Virus record (IMG/VR): IMGVR_UViG_3300027596_000105 | Coordinates: 1-41,611 of that record | DNA: 41,611 nucleotides | Source of the DNA: a virus | Strand: one strand, 5' to 3' | Shown here: one piece after another, positions 1 through 7,456 of the stretch | Layout of the letters: every line of letters begins with the position of its first letter | Position numbering within the stretch: the stretch's first letter is position 1 | The notes under the pieces: generated by a model | What the model saw: only the letters and a program-made list of their open reading frames with translations | Database searches by the model: none | What the model was told of the DNA's origin: nothing | Position numbers and translations under genes: made by a program

Positions 1-1278
1 CTAGCCTTCAAATTGGTAGACGCCTACCTGCCCCGAATTTCTACCGAGCCGGTCTGCAGTGATAATGTTGACTTCTACCACCACCATCCCCGTCAAATGC
101 CACACAGCCGCCATCATGACCCCCATATTTAATGCAAACTCATTCGCACAGCTTTGCTTGAAGAACTCCCCCTCGAGGAACATGCAGGACCCTTTGCAGA
201 GCTGAACGACGGGGCAAGACATGCACTCTTCCCGGAACGCAAAATGCGTCGCGGTATCGAGCGCGATGGCGTCAAAATCAGCCACATGACCGATCTTGTG
301 CGCCCCCTTGGCCCCCGTGTTCTGACAGGTCATAACGTTCCCGCGCAGATCGACGGCGATGGCGTCCGGGCTGTCCATCCCGCATTTCTGGCCAAGGGCG
401 TCGATTGGCCGCCGGCGTTGGATCGAGGCGTAGAATTCGTTGATGCGCTCGCCGAGGCCGAAAGCATTCGGATCCTCGACCAGCGCTTCAAAGATCGACC
501 ACGTCAGGCTGTTCAGTTCTGCAGGCTCGAACCGCCCCGTCCCGATGGCGGTCGCGGCGTCATAAACGTTCACCACGCCCTCGAGCCCCACGACGATGTC
601 CGGTCCGACCTTTTCAGCAAACCAGGCCTTGAGGGCCCGAAGGTCGTGATTCTGGCGCGTCAGAACCGCGTTGAAGCCAGTCCTCCCCGGTCGCTCGGCC
701 AGCAGGGCTTCAATCCAGCGCCGCTTTTCGGGATCATCAAGCGGATCAGGCCCGCGCAAATGCTGCCCTGGCCCGTCATGCGAGATCGTGATGGCGATGT
801 CATGCGCGGCGATGAAGTCGAGCTTCTCGCGGTCAAGAAGTGAACCGTTGGTGATGATCGAGAAGGCTGCCCTAGGGAACCGAGCCGCAAGCGCCGGCAC
901 CAACCGCTTGATCTTGGCCCAATACAAAAATGGCTCCCCGCCCCAAAGCTCAATCTTCTCCGGGGCTTGGGCAATCCAGCCGTCGAGCTCGGTCAAGAAG
1001 TGCTCGACATCCGCCAGCTTTGAGACCGTGGCATCCGCGATCTGGAAAGCCTGACTGCAATAGGCGCAGGCATAGTTGCACGACAGGCCCAGCTGGATTT
1101 TGAGCACCCGAGGCGCGCGGGATTTTCCGAGGGGCTTGTCTTTGGCCACCCGGGCGACCTGCGCGAAGGTTCCCGGGCTAACAGGCAGCGGCAGCCCCTC
1201 ACATTCCGAGGTGTGCGGGTTGTAGCGGACGGAATGCCGGCTGCCATCCCGCGCTTCCAGCGTCAAATCAAACCACAT
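1..1278 (-). CDS. Radical SAM/SPASM maturase-like enzyme
   Basis: A 425-aa radical-SAM enzyme expected to cleave S-adenosylmethionine and modify a peptide or protein. The AdoMet cluster motif CX3CX2C is at C67, C71 and C74 and is followed by a GGEP motif at about 113-116. The C-terminal half carries a complete SPASM signature: C299-X13-G-X4-C318, then C352-X2-C355-X5-C361-X3-C365 and C377, enough for two auxiliary [4Fe-4S] clusters. SPASM proteins include sactionine/thioether RiPP maturases, PqqE and anaerobic sulfatase maturases. The stop codon is at base 1. The ATG overlaps the stop of the upstream oxygenase by one base (TGATG), so the two are translationally coupled. It is the last gene of the late operon in this window. 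Enzyme class is sure; substrate is inferred to be a phage protein, the adjacent Cys-rich small protein being the best candidate. Confidence 0.9.
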   Translation of the reverse strand: MWFDLTLEARDGSRHSVRYNPHTSECEGLPLPVSPGTFAQVARVAKDKPLGKSRAPRVLKIQLGLSCNYACAYCSQAFQIADATVSKLADVEHFLTELDGWIAQAPEKIELWGGEPFLYWAKIKRLVPALAARFPRAAFSIITNGSLLDREKLDFIAAHDIAITISHDGPGQHLRGPDPLDDPEKRRWIEALLAERPGRTGFNAVLTRQNHDLRALKAWFAEKVGPDIVVGLEGVVNVYDAATAIGTGRFEPAELNSLTWSIFEALVEDPNAFGLGERINEFYASIQRRRPIDALGQKCGMDSPDAIAVDLRGNVMTCQNTGAKGAHKIGHVADFDAIALDTATHFAFREECMSCPVVQLCKGSCMFLEGEFFKQSCANEFALNMGVMMAAVWHLTGMVVVEVNIITADRLGRNSGQVGVYQFEG

Positions 1279-1904
1279 CAGTCAAAAAGCCTTTCTTCGA
1301 TCACCACGGGTAGGTTGACGCGGAAGTTCGCGACGACCTGTACATGCGGTGCGCTGCCCTCGTAGGGGTGCTGGTTGTGGGGAATGTGGGAGGGGAAGAA
1401 GACTGAGAGCCCTGGTCGCGGATTGACCGTGTAGCCGTGGCGGCTCTCATAGGGCAGCCGCCCCTCATCGAAGTAGCGCGACGGATCCTCGATCACGAAG
1501 CGCGGACTGCCGACGGAGTTCACCGGCTGGCCTGCCCCGCCACCGGTGAGGAAGTGCACGCAAGTGAGGTCCCCCTCCCGGCTGTCCTTGTGGGTCGAGA
1601 TGAAGCCGCCCGGCTCAATGACGAGGGCGCGGTTCTCGCAATGGTGGGGGTCGAGGTATTGGGCCCAGGGGCCGAGCACGGCGCGCGCGCAGGCGAAGAG
1701 GTGGGATTTCAGGGCTTGGCCGGCTTCACTACGCTCGAGAATGCCCCGCACTCGGCGCTCGGCCGCAGACAGGCGCGTAGAATTGCCCGTTACAGCCGCG
1801 ATTGCTTCGTCGGCAAGCCGCCGGTTAACGTCCCAGTCCACCGGCGTTTCAAAGAAGGTGACCCACGTCGGCCAGAGCTCCAAAGTGGTGCTGCGAACTT
1901 CCAT
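1278..1904 (-). CDS. 2OG-Fe(II) oxygenase (HxD...H type), tail-cassette copy B
   Basis: A 208-aa protein of the prolyl-4-hydroxylase-like 2-oxoglutarate/Fe(II) dioxygenase fold. The iron triad is visible as H105-x-D107 (GGFISTHKDSRE) and a distal histidine, probably H176, in PSHIPHNQHPYEG. R195 (ANFRVN) is the likely 2-oxoglutarate anchor. Such enzymes hydroxylate protein side chains or small molecules. I chose the ATG at 1904, two bases after the stop of the 102-aa gene; a GTG three codons upstream is possible. It sits between the Cys-rich small protein and the radical-SAM gene, which argues for a role in modifying a protein made by the same operon. It is only distantly similar to the second oxygenase (2205-2945), with a different proximal metal motif. 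Confidence 0.85.
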   Translation of the reverse strand: MEVRSTTLELWPTWVTFFETPVDWDVNRRLADEAIAAVTGNSTRLSAAERRVRGILERSEAGQALKSHLFACARAVLGPWAQYLDPHHCENRALVIEPGGFISTHKDSREGDLTCVHFLTGGGAGQPVNSVGSPRFVIEDPSRYFDEGRLPYESRHGYTVNPRPGLSVFFPSHIPHNQHPYEGSAPHVQVVANFRVNLPVVIEERLFD

Positions 1905-1906
1905 GG

Positions 1907-2215
1907 TCAGCACCGGCAGGCACAGTTGCAGTTGAAGGTTTTGCGGTTGGCCGTGATGGTGACCACTCCGGTTGAGCCGCCGCCTGAGAGGCTTTCAACG
2001 TAGCAGTTGTAGGTCGTGGTTCCGCTGAAGTTTGTGTTGATGGTGCCCGTTCCATAGACAGCGGTTGTGCCGGCTCCGCCAGAGGTGGGAACCCCGTTCA
2101 CGACAGTCACATCCGTGACATCGCCCGTGCCGATGACCGGTTTATTGGTGATCCGCGCCCAGTCGATAAGTCCGGTATCGTCGATCACGATGGTTGTTCC
2201 GACCTTATAAGCCAT
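1907..2215 (-). CDS. 102-aa small protein with C-terminal CxCxCxC tail, candidate modification substrate
   Basis: Small protein with two parts. Residues 1-28 contain VIDDTGLIDWARITNKP, a phrase that from memory resembles N-terminal segments of phage fibre proteins. Residues 29-90 are rich in Gly, Thr, Val and Asn and look like beta structure. The chain ends in KTFNCNCACRC, giving cysteines at 96, 98, 100 and 102, with one more at 71. The ATG at 2215 overlaps the end of the upstream oxygenase gene by 11 bases, and the downstream oxygenase starts two bases after its stop, so it is embedded in the enzyme operon. The size, position and cysteine-dense C terminus suit a RiPP-like precursor or a small tail-tip protein modified by the adjacent radical-SAM and 2OG enzymes; an alternative is an unmodified metal-binding tip. 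No function is established. Confidence 0.75.
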   Translation of the reverse strand: MAYKVGTTIVIDDTGLIDWARITNKPVIGTGDVTDVTVVNGVPTSGGAGTTAVYGTGTINTNFSGTTTYNCYVESLSGGGSTGVVTITANRKTFNCNCACRC

Positions 2216-2945
2216 GGCTGCCTCCTTGCGCCTGATGGGCCAGGATCTCCGTGAGACCTGCCTTGCAGTGAGAATTGGGAAGGTCGAGCGCACAAAGGAC
2301 TGGTATGCACATCCGCTCCTCGCCCTCGAAGTAGGTACTGTCGTGGGGAACATGCCCTTCGAAGATGAGCATTGAGCCCGTCCTTGGTTCGACCGCATAC
2401 CAGCCGCCAGTGTAGGCGTCCGGGTTGCGACAGGGCCAAAGCCGCTTGCCGACATTTGCCGGATCATAGAAGCGCACCGCCCCGCGATGAAGCGAGGTCC
2501 CCGGGCAATCGGTGTCCAGCACCACACGCGGGTAATAGGTACAGACGATGTCGGTCTGGATATGAGTGTGGGTGTTAATGCCGACGTTCTCGCGCAACGA
2601 CCTACGCTGCCAGAAGGTATCCGACATCATGCGGATGTCGCCGGTGTAATCGTATCCATAGGCCAGTTGCAAATATTCCCGTACGCCAGCCGCCACCATC
2701 TGCGCCAGCACCGCAAGCGCCGTGTCCTGCCGGTCCATCAGGAAGTTATGGCGCAGATGCCCGAGGTGGTTGGTCTGGTCGCCGACATTGCGCCCATCCC
2801 CCGCCTCCCGGATGCGATTGGCCTCGGCATCCTCTGCCGCCAGCGCGTGTAGGCGGTCATTGAAGCCATCGGGCATCTCCCAATGCTTGTGCAGCACAAA
2901 GCTTGGATAGATCAGCTGGAATTCACTCGTGGTTGCGATTTCCAT
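2205..2945 (-). CDS. 2OG-Fe(II) oxygenase, tail-cassette copy A
   Basis: A 246-aa protein resembling the 'putative 2OG-Fe(II) oxygenase' group (PF13759-like). A proximal histidine cluster at H126/H128 (NTHTHIQTD, with D132) and a distal FEGHVPHDSTYFEGEER segment with H201 and R211 match the metal and 2-oxoglutarate sites of that group. The intervening strands include a YYP turn and a FYDP motif, as is usual there. It starts on an ATG overlapping the stop of the 300-aa gene by one base. It could hydroxylate the upstream 300-aa protein, a fibre tip, or the downstream Cys-rich small protein. Family placement is fairly sure; the exact metal ligands (HxH versus HxHxxxD) need a structural model. 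Confidence 0.8.
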   Translation of the reverse strand: MEIATTSEFQLIYPSFVLHKHWEMPDGFNDRLHALAAEDAEANRIREAGDGRNVGDQTNHLGHLRHNFLMDRQDTALAVLAQMVAAGVREYLQLAYGYDYTGDIRMMSDTFWQRRSLRENVGINTHTHIQTDIVCTYYPRVVLDTDCPGTSLHRGAVRFYDPANVGKRLWPCRNPDAYTGGWYAVEPRTGSMLIFEGHVPHDSTYFEGEERMCIPVLCALDLPNSHCKAGLTEILAHQAQGGSHGL

Positions 2946-3847
2946 CAGATGACCTCCAGCACGATCTTGCCGATCGCGGTGTAATGCTCGGTGTTGAGCT
3001 TCACGGCGATGCTGTCGCCTGGAGAGAGACCCAGCGCCTCGATGGCAAAGCTGCCCGTGCCATCAGCGGCAGTGACCAGACGGCGTTTCGGCAGATAGCC
3101 CGCGTCGCTTTCCAGTTTCAGCGCGATGGCATGGGCAAAGGCTGAACCATCCGCGTTCCACCTGAGCGCGACAGGCACATCCACCCGACCGCCGGCTGGC
3201 ACGGTGGCAGCCTCTGGGCCCAAGGCGTGGAAGTAGAACTGCTTGTACCAAAGCCCGTCCTTCGGGATCGAAGCATCGTCGATCGTGCCCGCTTGCACTG
3301 TGCCGTTCAGCAAAATCGGCGGGATTTGGCACAGGACCTCGATCCGGGCCTGATCGAAGGGCACCACCACAGGCAGAAACACCACCAGCGCGTTCGAGAT
3401 GCCTTCGAGTGCCCTGTACCGGAACGAAGTGTCGATCTTCTCGCGGGCGGATCTGGCAAAACGGTTCCGCCACGAGAGCGGCCGGCCGTCAGCGCCGACA
3501 GCCATGTCGATCAGCGCGTGATCGACGATTTCGTCATGACCCCGCATGCCGGTCGCAAAGAGACCAGATCGGCCCTTGTAGATCGCCCCCATCGGCGCGT
3601 CAGGAAGGTCCGGGATAAAACATTCATTGTGGGCCAGATCCACAAAGCCCGCCTGATTGCCAAAGGCAGGCCGAGCCTCGAGATGCGGCAGAAGATCTGC
3701 CCAGAGCATGACCCCGCCCATGCCAGTTGCCGTACCAGGGTTTGCGAACTCGAAGACGGCAATCGAGACATAGTCTGGTTTGACATCGACCGCGTAATGG
3801 CGCGGCACTCCGCAATTGGTGATGGCATAAAGCCCGGTCTCGATCAT
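2945..3847 (-). CDS. Unknown 300-aa protein downstream of the tail fibre
   Basis: I do not recognise the family. The N-terminal 200 residues form a mixed alpha/beta region without signal peptide or membrane segment. The last 95 residues (from about GPEAATVPAGGRVDVPV) look like a beta-sandwich ending in a VLEVI strand, similar in style to phage carbohydrate-binding or Ig-like modules. It overlaps the preceding S74 fibre gene by 4 bases and the following oxygenase by 1, so it is co-translated with both. Its position makes it a possible fibre-associated receptor-binding or accessory tail protein, and a possible substrate for the two oxygenases. Coding status is well supported by the coupled frame and length; function is unknown. 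Confidence 0.7.
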   Translation of the reverse strand: MIETGLYAITNCGVPRHYAVDVKPDYVSIAVFEFANPGTATGMGGVMLWADLLPHLEARPAFGNQAGFVDLAHNECFIPDLPDAPMGAIYKGRSGLFATGMRGHDEIVDHALIDMAVGADGRPLSWRNRFARSAREKIDTSFRYRALEGISNALVVFLPVVVPFDQARIEVLCQIPPILLNGTVQAGTIDDASIPKDGLWYKQFYFHALGPEAATVPAGGRVDVPVALRWNADGSAFAHAIALKLESDAGYLPKRRLVTAADGTGSFAIEALGLSPGDSIAVKLNTEHYTAIGKIVLEVI

Positions 3848-4437
3848 GGCGCGGTCCTTTTCAGCTGATCGACCTCTTGGGCGAGGTCCTTGATGGCCTC
3901 GACGAGGAGGCCCACGAGATTGCCATAAGCGAGGCGCAGCACGCCTTCGGCTTCGATCACGGCCTCCGGCGCGACCGCATGGACCTCTTGCGCGATGAGG
4001 CCCATCTGCCGCACATCGCTGCCCGCCATGGTGAAGGTGACGCCGGTTAGCGCATGAACTTTGGCTAGCGCATCTGCGATGGGCGCGATGTCGGATTTGA
4101 GCCGTGCGTCCGAAGAGGAGACGAAGTTCGGCGCCGTGACTGTGCCGGAGAAGGTCGCCCCAGCGAGTTGCGCAAAGGCGCTCGCATGGGTGCCATCGAG
4201 AAGATCGGCATTGAGACCCGAGCCAGGCCCATCCTGCGCAGTCACCTTGGCGAAGAGTTCGGCATCGGTCATGCCGCCAGCAGTGACATCGACGATGCTC
4301 TCGACGCCGCTCGTGCTTTTCTTGAGGTAGAGCTTTCCGTCGGTCACGTTGACAGCGAGTTCCCCCAACACAAGATCAGCCGGAACTGGCGCGCGTCCAG
4401 CCACGGTGCTGCGCTTCAACAACAGGATGTTCGGCAT
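3844..4437 (-). CDS. Tail fibre with C-terminal S74 intramolecular chaperone domain
   Basis: A 197-aa fibre protein. The N terminus (LLLKRSTVAG ... LGELAVNVTDGKLYLKK) resembles phage fibre anchoring segments. The C-terminal third begins with SSDARLKSDIAPI and continues through GLIAQEV and a coiled-coil end (LVEAIKDLAQEVDQLK). This is the Peptidase_S74 / endosialidase chaperone domain, which trimerises the fibre and usually cleaves itself at the Ser of the SSDxRLK motif. A short GATFSGTVTAPNF fibre strand precedes it. It starts two bases after the stop of the long fibre gene, and its stop overlaps the start of the 300-aa gene. A second protein with the same C-terminal domain lies at 9178-9837. 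Confidence 0.88.
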   Translation of the reverse strand: MPNILLLKRSTVAGRAPVPADLVLGELAVNVTDGKLYLKKSTSGVESIVDVTAGGMTDAELFAKVTAQDGPGSGLNADLLDGTHASAFAQLAGATFSGTVTAPNFVSSSDARLKSDIAPIADALAKVHALTGVTFTMAGSDVRQMGLIAQEVHAVAPEAVIEAEGVLRLAYGNLVGLLVEAIKDLAQEVDQLKRTAP

Positions 4438-4439
4438 GG

Positions 4440-6080
4440 TCAGAACGTCCCACCGTCGAGCGCCACGCCATCGATAGACCCACCGGTAATGGCGACCGAG
4501 GCGGAGGATTGCGTGGCGAGTGTCCCGAGCCCAAGGGTGCCGCGCGCCGTTGCGGCGTCGGCATCATCCAGAATCGTGCGCGCAAAAGCCGTCAGGGTCG
4601 CCAGGGCCGCGGCTGAGGCCCCAGTGTAGTAAGCGAGACGATCCGCGGCCGGTGCCAAACTCCCGACACTTGCCAACGCTGCGGTGAGGGTGAGTGTCGG
4701 GTTTCCGGCAACGGCATCGCCATTCGAGACAGAAAGCCCGGTGCCGCTGACAGCAATGGATCGTGCCGCCACCGTGGCGGCAGCGGTGCGTGCGACAATA
4801 CCGTTGGTGGCAAGGTTATGAAGCGCCAGGGCCTGCCCCGTCAGCCCAACCGTATCGGCCGCCACCGCAATGCCGGTGCCTGCGCCCACATCCAGCGTGT
4901 TGCCGGATTTGGTCAGACCCGCGCCTGCGAGGATTTGTCCCGCCCCCGTGAACTGCACGAAGGCAACAGCCGTGGTGCCAAGCGCGCCGCCGGGATCCAC
5001 CGTGGCGAGATAGCCCATATCGGCATTGACCGTGCCGCTTTCCACAAAGACATAGGCTGAGACCAACTCGCCCCAGGTATCTGCATCTGGAGAGCGCGCC
5101 CAAGCCCCGGCCGCAACGACATAGATGCCGTTTTGGCCGGCGGTCGTCTGATCCTTCACGAGCACCCTGTCGCCTGCGACAAGCGCAACCCCGTCAAGCG
5201 TCATTGGGCCAGACAGGGTGGCGATATTCGCCGTGCTGGCCGCCCGCACCGATTGCTTGGGCTCAAGCCCCTGCACCGTAAGGTCCACATAGGCCTTGGT
5301 CACGGCATCCTGCGCGCCTTGCGGATCGCCGAGCCCTGTCAGACGAAAGCCGCCGAGGGCGATATCCGCGGCGGGCGCGGTAAGCTGATCGAGCCGGGTC
5401 GCCCTTACGAAGGCCGTCGTTGCGATCTGCGTCGTGTTCGTGCCGTTTGCCGGTGTCGGCGCGGTGGGCGTGCCTGTCAGCGCGGGAGAGGCCAGCGGCG
5501 CGCGTGAAGTGTCTGTTGGATGGACATGATCTGCGCGGGCAAAGCGCGTGGCTGTGCCGATTGCAGCCGTGCCGTCCATTCCTGGAGCGGTCGCAGCAGC
5601 TTGGCCGAGCACAAAGGCGGTCGTCGCAAGCTGGGTGGTGTTGGTGTCGGTTGTCGCCGTGGGAGCCGTCGGCGTGCCGGTCAGGCCGGGCGATGCCAGC
5701 GGTGCTTTCGCATCGAGCGCCGATTGCAGCCCCGTCACATCGCTGACCACATGGGAATGCGCGAGCGCGGCCTTCGTGGCCAGTCCCGCATCGAGTTGCG
5801 ATTTGCGCACGAGGTCTGTCGCCGCACTCGCGTCCTCGGAGGACTTCGGGACGGTGGCGAAGGTCTTGACCCCGGCAATGCTTTGCGAAGCCGTGAGATC
5901 GACAAAGGCGCCTTTGCCCGCAAGAGGGATAACCGAGGTCGCATTGCCCGTCCCATCATCGCCCTTGCCGACATAGAGCGTGTCATCAACCTCGTTATGG
6001 GCAATCTCGCCGGATTTGAGCGCAGTTGGCGCACCGGCCATGCCGGAGACACGGCGTTTGAGTTGGATCGAATTTGCCAT
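4440..6080 (-). CDS. Long tail fibre protein with repeated TATTAFV units
   Basis: A 546-aa, Ala/Thr/Gly-rich fibre. The N terminus (IQLKRRVSG ... LKSGEIAHNEVDDTLYVGKG) matches the anchor style of the S74 fibre. Two copies of a repeat of the type APLASPxLTGTPTAP...TTAFV lie at about residues 126-157 and 194-225, a repeat family typical of phage fibres. A central region with DPQGAQDAVTKAYVD and a VLVKDQT...NGIYVV module is also usual in fibres. The C terminus is a low-complexity beta-rich region without the S74 chaperone, which is instead supplied as a separate gene just downstream. It overlaps the upstream collagen-like gene by one base. Confidence 0.88.
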   Translation of the reverse strand: MANSIQLKRRVSGMAGAPTALKSGEIAHNEVDDTLYVGKGDDGTGNATSVIPLAGKGAFVDLTASQSIAGVKTFATVPKSSEDASAATDLVRKSQLDAGLATKAALAHSHVVSDVTGLQSALDAKAPLASPGLTGTPTAPTATTDTNTTQLATTAFVLGQAAATAPGMDGTAAIGTATRFARADHVHPTDTSRAPLASPALTGTPTAPTPANGTNTTQIATTAFVRATRLDQLTAPAADIALGGFRLTGLGDPQGAQDAVTKAYVDLTVQGLEPKQSVRAASTANIATLSGPMTLDGVALVAGDRVLVKDQTTAGQNGIYVVAAGAWARSPDADTWGELVSAYVFVESGTVNADMGYLATVDPGGALGTTAVAFVQFTGAGQILAGAGLTKSGNTLDVGAGTGIAVAADTVGLTGQALALHNLATNGIVARTAAATVAARSIAVSGTGLSVSNGDAVAGNPTLTLTAALASVGSLAPAADRLAYYTGASAAALATLTAFARTILDDADAATARGTLGLGTLATQSSASVAITGGSIDGVALDGGTF

Positions 6081-6307
6081 CAGAAGAAGCCTCCGTTGAT
6101 GGGAGCGTCGGTCGGAAGAATGGTGATGCCAGGTGTGCCCTGATCGCCCTTGTCGCCTTGCAGACCCGTTCGCCCCTGAGGCCCGGGCTGACCAAGAAGC
6201 CGCACAGCCACCGGACCCGCCAGAACGCGAAGCCGGATCGGTTCGTTGGATCTCAAATGCAGGCGGATCGGCCCGGTCAGGGGTCGAAGTTCAAGTGCTG
6301 CCACCAT
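6080..6307 (-). CDS. Short collagen-like tail protein
   Basis: A 75-aa protein. Residues 1-36 are a basic/hydrophobic beta-like segment. Residues 39-60 form Gly-X-Y triplets (GQPGPQGRTGLQGDKGDQG), a short collagen-like triple helix common in phage fibre connectors. The C terminus ends in NGGFF. It lies between the 119-aa protein and the long fibre, overlapping the fibre start by one base, and is likely a trimeric linker or collar of the fibre. The role is inferred from repeat type and position. Confidence 0.7.
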   Translation of the reverse strand: MVAALELRPLTGPIRLHLRSNEPIRLRVLAGPVAVRLLGQPGPQGRTGLQGDKGDQGTPGITILPTDAPINGGFF

Positions 6308-6310
6308 GGC

Positions 6311-6670
6311 TCAGAGACCCCCAGAACCAGGGAGCCTCGTCACCGGCAGGACCACAGGGATTTCCAGAACGAAGCCGAGGTGCTGGTCGGGTGTCAGATC
6401 GGTGCGGACGAGATCCAGAACAATACCGCCGGGCCCGAGGCTGGCTGTCACGTCAGGGGCAAGAACGATTTCCAGCGTGCGCACATCCACGCGCAGCACG
6501 CTGCCCGCCGCACTGGACAGTTCTGCCACCACCGTCGCGGTGCTGATCGCGCTGCGCACTTGGCCCACAAAGCTGGCCCCCTCGGGGAAGAGATCGGCCT
6601 CGGCCTGCAACTGCAGCCGGTATTCATAACCGATCAGGATCACCGGACCTTCTTGAAGTGACGTGGTCAT
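6311..6670 (-). CDS. Unknown 119-aa tail-region protein
   Basis: A predicted beta-rich protein (for example ILIGYEYRLQLQAEADLFPEG and RTLEIVLAPDVTAS) with no recognised family. I place the start at the ATG at 6670 because GGAGG lies about 5 bases upstream; an in-frame ATG four codons earlier would overlap that ribosome-binding site. It is the first gene of the left fibre block and is followed by the collagen-like gene after 3 bases. It is probably a small tail or fibre-base component. The 100-bp gap upstream separates it from a divergent plus-strand gene and must hold promoters for one or both. Confidence 0.6.
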   Translation of the reverse strand: MTTSLQEGPVILIGYEYRLQLQAEADLFPEGASFVGQVRSAISTATVVAELSSAAGSVLRVDVRTLEIVLAPDVTASLGPGGIVLDLVRTDLTPDQHLGFVLEIPVVLPVTRLPGSGGL

Positions 6671-6772
6671 GCATGCCTCCACGGACCATTCGAGCGGCCG
6701 GGTCAGAACGAGTTCGATTGAGAATTCAGCCCATTTCGCCTAAAGGATGCGCGGCCACGGGAGGGACGCATC

Positions 6773-7456
6773 ATGGATCAGGACGACGAACGGCTCGACC
6801 GTCTGGAAGAACTCTTGCAGGCGCTGCCCGTCGAGAACGAACCGATGACAGTGAGCGAGCTCGATGGTTTTATGACGGGACTTCTGGCCTGTCCCGAGAT
6901 GATCCCGCCTTCGGACTGGCTCTCACAGGTCTGGGGCGTCACGGGGGACGCACAATTCCCCGACCTCGCCACGGCCCAAGAGACGATCGGGGCGGTGATG
7001 GCCCATTACAACGATGTCGCTGCCCGGATCACGCAATCGCTCTGGGTCGAACCGATCTACGAGATCGATACGAACAGCGACGAGACCCTCTGGGAGCCTT
7101 GGGTTGACGGCTTCACACGCGCCATGGCTTTGCGGCCCAAGGCCTGGGAAGAGCTGCTGGACCGGGCCGACAACGAGGCCCGCGAGACCATGATATTCAT
7201 CATGGCGCTGCAGGACATCTACATCGGGAACAGCAAGTTCAGCGATGAAGAGATCGACCAGATCGATGAAGAGGCCCCCGATTTGATCCCGAACTGCGTG
7301 GCGACGATCCTGCACCAGTCACGCCCCGAACTGGCCCGCGCGATGCCTGCCAATCTCCCCGGCCAGCCGTTCAAATCGGAGCCCAAGACAGGTCGCAACG
7401 ATCATTGCCCCTGCGGCTCGGGTCGCAAATACAAGCAGTGCTGCGGCAAGAACTGA
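6773..7456 (+). CDS. YecA/UPF0149 family protein with SEC-C zinc motif
   Basis: A 227-aa plus-strand protein inside a block of minus-strand late genes. Residues 5-180 fit the UPF0149/YecA fold (LDRLEELL ... [22 protein letters not shown] ... WVDGFTRAM). The C terminus is a SEC-C metal-binding motif ([18 protein letters not shown]), the same zinc module as at the end of SecA. GGGAGG lies just upstream of the ATG. The stop is 16 bases from the convergent Rz1 gene. Bacteria encode such proteins outside phages, so this is probably a cargo gene (moron) with its own promoter, perhaps interacting with Sec or ribosomes; the function is not established. Confidence 0.88.

Follow-up and report, generated by a model that had tools for sequence, protein, structure and literature searches.

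Asn-Cys arrays of phage fibre proteins and their radical-SAM/SPASM partner: a candidate fibre-tip modification

Why should a small protein encoded among the fibre genes of a phage end in closely alternating cysteines, with a radical-SAM/SPASM enzyme encoded almost beside it? The question is raised by an IMG/VR virus record (IMGVR_UViG_3300027596_000105), analysed here over a stretch of 41,611 nucleotides (the window). The phage is temperate; its genes include those for terminase, portal, tape measure, and central fibre J, and its integrase matches DNA-invertase families too. Many phages carry small fibre proteins that end in alternating Asn and Cys, almost always beside a cross-linking-type radical-SAM enzyme. 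Because these Asn-Cys ends so nearly always adjoin the enzyme, we suggest that phages chemically modify the fibre tips that touch the host.

The Cys-tail gene and its neighbours

The protein in question (P0001, 102 aa) is encoded at 1907..2215 on the minus strand; on the plus strand, the frame is interrupted by stops. An earlier sequence-only reading had picked out the ORF and its KTFNCNCACRC end without giving the strand, and the call is correct. The protein starts MAYKVGTTIVIDDTGLIDWARITNKP and ends GGGSTGVVTITANRKTFNCNCACRC, with the Asn-Cys array NCNCACRC (1910..1933, minus strand) at the extreme C-terminus. Four Cys do lie within the last seven residues (C-N-C-A-C-R-C), behind a Gly/Thr-rich centre, as had been described; a fifth lies upstream of the tail, in TYNCYVES, and the sequence contains no His and hence no HxH motif. 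A perfect Shine-Dalgarno sequence (AAGGAGG, 2221..2227, minus strand) can be read 5 nt upstream of the ATG, and the ORF overlaps the flanking oxygenase genes by 11 and 7 nt. No matching family was found in Pfam, NCBIfam, or PHROG, and tblastn against 50,697 phage records returned no relative of this protein.

The gene sits within a tightly packed minus-strand fibre block, past the fibre and S74 genes. The block opens with a small protein that is present in relatives as well (6311..6682), followed by a short collagen-like fibre protein of 75 aa (6080..6307), a tail fibre protein of 546 aa (4440..6080), and a fibre protein with a C-terminal S74 self-cleaving chaperone (3844..4437). Next come an associated protein with an Ig-like domain at its C-terminus (P0005, 300 aa, 2945..3847; domain at residues 205-300), a 2OG-Fe(II) oxygenase-like protein (a, 246 aa, 2205..2945), the Cys-tail gene, a second oxygenase-like protein (b, 211 aa, 1278..1913, HxD...H), and the radical-SAM/SPASM enzyme (P0002, 425 aa, 1..1278, phrog_1802), with array and enzyme genes on the same strand. 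We regard the 102-aa protein as a probable small tail-fibre (tip) protein. The sequence-only reading had found most of it unlike a RiPP leader, and this view stands. Incidentally, a protein with a terminal SEC-C-like zinc motif is encoded next to the block on the opposite strand (6773-7456, plus).

The assignment of P0002 is based on a match of the radical-SAM barrel to PF04055 (3.5e-9) and of the SPASM region to TIGR04085 (31.5 bits, cut-off 27). Among 72 relatives, C67 and C71 of the CxxxCxxC motif are invariant and C74 nearly so, as are, without exception, seven SPASM Cys (C299, C318, C352, C355, C361, C365, and C377). The structure model (pLDDT 94) fits CteB best of the solved structures (Z 23.4 over 349 residues), followed by ChlB (22.3) and anSMEcpe (21.4), with TigE also close. 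It should be noted that the SPASM fold alone does not fix the chemistry, as in these model comparisons anSME, an enzyme that makes formylglycine from Cys, comes close to the score of CteB. The model contains no fused RRE; its N-terminus (residues 1-50) consists of three short strands, with no helices. An RRE on a separate protein is conceivable. The last ~20 residues (window 1-60, minus strand) are not common to the relatives, whose matches stop near residue 405, and this part of the window is a contig or prophage end.

The two oxygenase-like proteins fall below the PF13759 cut-off of 27 bits (P0004, 25.1; P0003, 17.9), and an aligned relative (L118:8679-9353) scores 79 bits. The metal-binding His of P0004, H126 and H201, are invariant in 26 aligned proteins, and a profile search finds the solved structures 3bvc/2rg4. 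Of 91 non-redundant enzyme loci, 45 have an oxygenase of the PF13759 type and 62 a P0005-like protein; among 120 control loci, the respective counts are 1 and 0. Thus, the enzyme is the constant partner of the array, and the P0005-like proteins and oxygenases are common but not universal; a 2OG partner is not essential, as roughly half of the non-redundant loci do without one. For residues 1-204 of the P0005 model, neither Foldseek nor VIA-align gave a clear match. Two cassettes without a 2OG gene encode a fatty-acid-desaturase-like membrane protein with His motifs (L079:4654-5385, L102:4576-5298) that has no Pfam match above cut-off.

Co-occurrence of array and enzyme

Close relatives of the Cys-tail protein were collected from 25 viral loci and 12 genome loci, the latter nearly all from Rhodobacteraceae. 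They share the N-terminus MAYKVGTTIVIDD.G..DW.RI.NKP, followed by a centre that, unlike the tail, differs in length and sequence. The (N-C)n tail is kept in all 23 complete viral relatives, in the form of (NC)nAC-RC, (NC)n-RC, QCYC, and similar endings. A chance Cys tail can be ruled out on the basis of this conservation and the matched control described below. The cassette order (P0005, 2OG-a, Cys protein, 2OG-b, radical-SAM enzyme) is conserved in the close loci where the contig is long enough, and in five further host loci. The exception, L036, is disrupted; it is a decaying prophage copy (L036:5253-8791) with frameshifts in the P0005 and 2OG genes and, upstream, a transposase-like gene; a search of its genome gave no relative of the enzyme. 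At another locus, L037, the same N-terminus directly follows the S74 gene and leads into a different, Cys-free C-terminus, and the genome that contains it returned no relative of the radical-SAM enzyme. As the only natural tail-less homologue, L037 is informative: tail and enzyme are absent together. The enzyme is present in 3 of 198 Rhodobacteraceae genomes and is therefore an accessory prophage gene.

Three scans were made, each selected differently, by array only, by enzyme only, or by N-terminal fibre scaffold only. For the array-only scan, we used the pattern [N]C[ND]C[ND]C[ND]CxC, which is found in IMG/VR at 120 or more loci (120 matches listed), with a matched Asn-Ser (N-S) pattern at 120 loci as the control. 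The same radical-SAM family accompanies 88 of the 120 listed Asn-Cys loci and none of the 120 control loci (p=1.6e-38; like the p-value given below, only indicative, because rows share ancestry and hypotheses and patterns were refined on the same data, not preregistered). The array lies within 30 aa of the ORF end in 101 of the 120 listed loci, compared with 17 of 120 for the control. Among the matches listed, 20 of these 101 C-terminal arrays initially had no enzyme nearby; nine of them have it elsewhere in the record, three are spurious ORFs of 35-46 aa, and for the remainder the record mostly ends close to the array. Cys tails with no neighbouring radical-SAM gene, which would have spoken against the sequence-only reading, are thus largely accounted for by distant enzymes, spurious ORFs, or record ends.

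Selecting by enzyme only (L064-L118) gave a C.C.C.C ORF on the same strand in 43 of 55 loci and on the opposite strand in one. Enzyme homologues down to 36% identity adjoin ORFs with C-x-C-x-C tails on unrelated scaffolds.

The scaffold-only scan took the N-terminus MT.PASG.I..S, searched as a DNA pattern. Array and enzyme were both present in 19 cases and both absent in 82, with two cases of array only and one of enzyme only (indicative p=1.4e-17); for complete non-redundant ORFs, the respective counts are 15, 57, 1, and 0. As for the three exceptions, in L508 the enzyme is located elsewhere in the record, the record of L514 stops 196 bases past the array, and L509, which keeps the enzyme, has the tail of L463 in frameshifted form. 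Two cases counted as having neither do have both, L461 further along its record and the jumbo record of L408 with the array on another small protein. A second scaffold (FGDGT) gave only five array-bearing matches, four with the enzyme and the fifth at a contig end. Homologues that lack the cysteines yet keep the enzyme, the other pattern that would count against the earlier proposal, are therefore represented solely by the frameshifted tail of L509. Overall, array and enzyme are linked in both directions, and are also absent together, across many unrelated fibre scaffolds. The conservation of C-terminal Cys and their link to the radical-SAM gene, for which the sequence-only reading had advised a survey of homologues, thus extends far beyond one family.

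Position and sequence of the arrays

The array is either the extreme C-terminus or is placed directly before a Hint domain, an S74 chaperone, or a domain of ~170 aa; internal arrays usually precede one of the two self-cleaving types. In Achromobacter phages JWF and 2-1 and in L068, L099, L105, L159, L171, and L224, the array runs directly into a Hint domain whose first residue is the catalytic Cys/Ser; in L138 (and near copies) and L198, it runs into an S74 self-cleaving chaperone. JWF, L068, and L138 pass the Pfam cut-off for these domains and L105 is below it; the calls for L099, L159, L171, L198, and L224 were made by eye from the sequence. Judging from what is known of the two families, the array-adjacent copies probably cleave themselves, and such processing would therefore leave the array as the mature C-terminus. 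The ~170-aa domain (L107:7315-8223, L108:4636-5631, L118:7482-8378) begins with SKI(I/V)CAKL(Y/F)D(F/L)G immediately behind the array and has no match in Pfam or PHROG; it may serve as a further domain for self-processing or as a chaperone.

Residue composition was counted in array proteins found solely through the enzyme, with other ORFs of the same loci as controls. Of all Cys, 55% have Asn directly before them, and outside C-x runs (172 Cys) the share is 62%, compared with 4.7% in the control ORFs. Within CxC, the intervening residue is N (101), A (39), D (18), or R (13); Asn is not a strict requirement, because Ala is the second most common residue. NxxC was considered as a strict motif and rejected, because every (NC)n repeat includes it and isolated Cys outside runs show an Asn bias at -1 and none at -3. 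For the same reason, Asn-Cys is the better description. In some small fibre proteins (L138:3956-4633, L159:291-1286, L198:12721-13347), many Asn-Cys dipeptides are scattered over the whole length (e.g., NCNNGNCTNNCNCGN), as though modification covered the entire protein.

At three loci (L181:2048-2972, L211:7111-8282, L226:3830-4710), exactly three tandem paralogous array proteins lie beside one radical-SAM gene. One might speculate that the three paralogues form a heterotrimeric tip. Because the N-termini are unrelated, and one enzyme can lie beside three paralogues, recognition by the enzyme is probably directed at the Asn-Cys repeat and not at a leader peptide.

Proposed modification and its alternatives

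We consider it likely that the radical-SAM enzyme modifies the Asn-Cys arrays of fibre tips, with thioether cross-links as the most plausible product. The earlier proposal of a fibre-derived substrate for the neighbouring SPASM enzyme is supported by the co-occurrence across scaffolds, from which we infer that the enzyme encoded two genes downstream acts on the C-terminal (Asn-Cys)n array. Less certainly, a thioether would run from the Cys sulphur to a neighbouring Asn or Asp, as in the products of NxxcA, freyrasin, and QhpD maturation. Reviewed examples of such S-C-beta bonds link Cys to Asn in NxxcA, to Asp in freyrasin, and to Asp or Glu in the QhpD product (PMC8326336), which makes Asn/Asp known acceptors for the SPASM fold. 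In the roughly half of loci that have them, 2OG oxygenases may hydroxylate the same or an adjacent fibre protein. The fibre would then touch the host envelope with a short, rigid tip, held by cross-links and resistant to proteases or reduction. We lean, with rather less assurance, toward a broader reading in which this is a separate and widespread viral modification: phages' own radical-SAM enzyme and oxygenases would remodel or cross-link the poly(Asn-Cys) tips of unrelated receptor-binding fibres, leaderless and sometimes exposed by S74 or Hint.

The arrangement resembles that of the ranthipeptides (SCIFF/CteA-CteB, freyrasin, NxxcA-NxxcB), in which a Cys-rich substrate is encoded beside a SPASM radical-SAM enzyme, and CteB is the closest solved fold. 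However, the candidate substrate here is a tail fibre, not a secreted peptide, and its motif is an Asn-Cys repeat. There is also no shared leader among substrates of related maturases, the arrays being carried on many N-terminal scaffolds whose domains are unrelated. A classical RiPP with a leader is thus unsupported, and "RiPP" is the wrong label, because both a fused RRE and a common leader are lacking. QhpD provides a SPASM enzyme whose cross-linking target is a protein, not a peptide natural product, as predicted here, but that target is a cellular enzyme subunit (quinohemoprotein amine dehydrogenase) with no Asn-Cys arrays, and P0002 matches the QhpD model TIGR03906 weakly, with 47.9 of 453 bits, far under the family cut-off.

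Several other explanations must be weighed. The alternating Cys of a fibre trimer could face inward and bind iron or zinc, with the enzyme having some other target. The C-x-C alternation would suit a beta-strand with all Cys on one face, and phage fibres are known to have HxH iron sites, for example at the T4 gp37 tip (PMC11705849), a precedent for repeated metal-ligand-like residues in that position. However, those tips use His where P0001 has Cys, and they have no maturase. Metal binding alone seems unlikely to us, as it leaves unexplained both the near-obligate pairing with one SPASM enzyme across unrelated scaffolds and the Asn-Cys bias outside runs, although it could occur in addition to modification. 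Oxidation of Cys to formylglycine by an anSME-like enzyme, with aldehydes formed that could bond to amines on the host surface, is suggested by the rank of anSMEcpe among the structural matches and by the former annotation of the JWF enzyme as a sulfatase maturase. Like the reaction proposed here, that of anSME takes place on a protein (at Cys or Ser). The anSME substrate motif is CxPxR, which is absent here, and anSME acts at one site in a sulfatase, whereas this locus encodes no sulfatase; a repetitive array suits multi-site cross-linking at least as well, and we judge formylglycine quite unlikely.

The array might instead be changed in some other way, by epimerization to D-residues or by C-C cross-links of Asn, with its Cys remaining as thiols or paired in disulfides. 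Epimerases and C-C cross-linkers of the radical-SAM class have related folds, and EpeE and SuiB are among the structural matches, but the full SPASM Cys set and the top match to CteB speak for a mechanism like that of CteB or anSME, and the Cys are the invariant part of the array; such changes are very improbable. Finally, fibre cassettes move as modules, and the enzyme could merely travel with them while modifying a host molecule or another phage molecule. This is hard to credit when arrays on unrelated scaffolds pair with the enzyme and, within one scaffold family, the enzyme goes with the array-bearing copies (the 19/82/2/1 counts above).

If the proposed cross-linking is correct, some phages build host-contacting tips by radical chemistry that had been seen in peptide natural products and a small number of enzymes. 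Their cross-linking enzyme would work at protein scale, apparently without need of a leader, on a simple repeat motif. It would also add a new layer to the setting of phage host range, because array fibres would not mature fully when the enzyme is missing. What phage 2OG oxygenases do beside fibre genes becomes testable, and a cultivated phage, JWF, already has the array-enzyme pair.

In JWF and 2-1, the gene order is a fibre with array and Hint, an unknown protein, and the radical-SAM enzyme, and the array of JWF gp28 reads NCNCDCNCNCSC. Both phages share with the window a fibre array and the same radical-SAM family; unlike the window, the array is followed by Hint, and profile searches found no 2OG gene. 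Their record annotations do not remark on the pair, and we found no earlier description of Asn-Cys fibre arrays with a radical-SAM enzyme in the open-access PMC literature. A tblastn search with P0002 against the 50,697 phage records exceeded 80% coverage only in these two, and the system is therefore rare among isolates, though IMG/VR has at least 120 array loci. At some loci (L143:5437-6459, and similarly L095, L162, L225, and L233), a second, shorter radical-SAM gene adjoins the main one.
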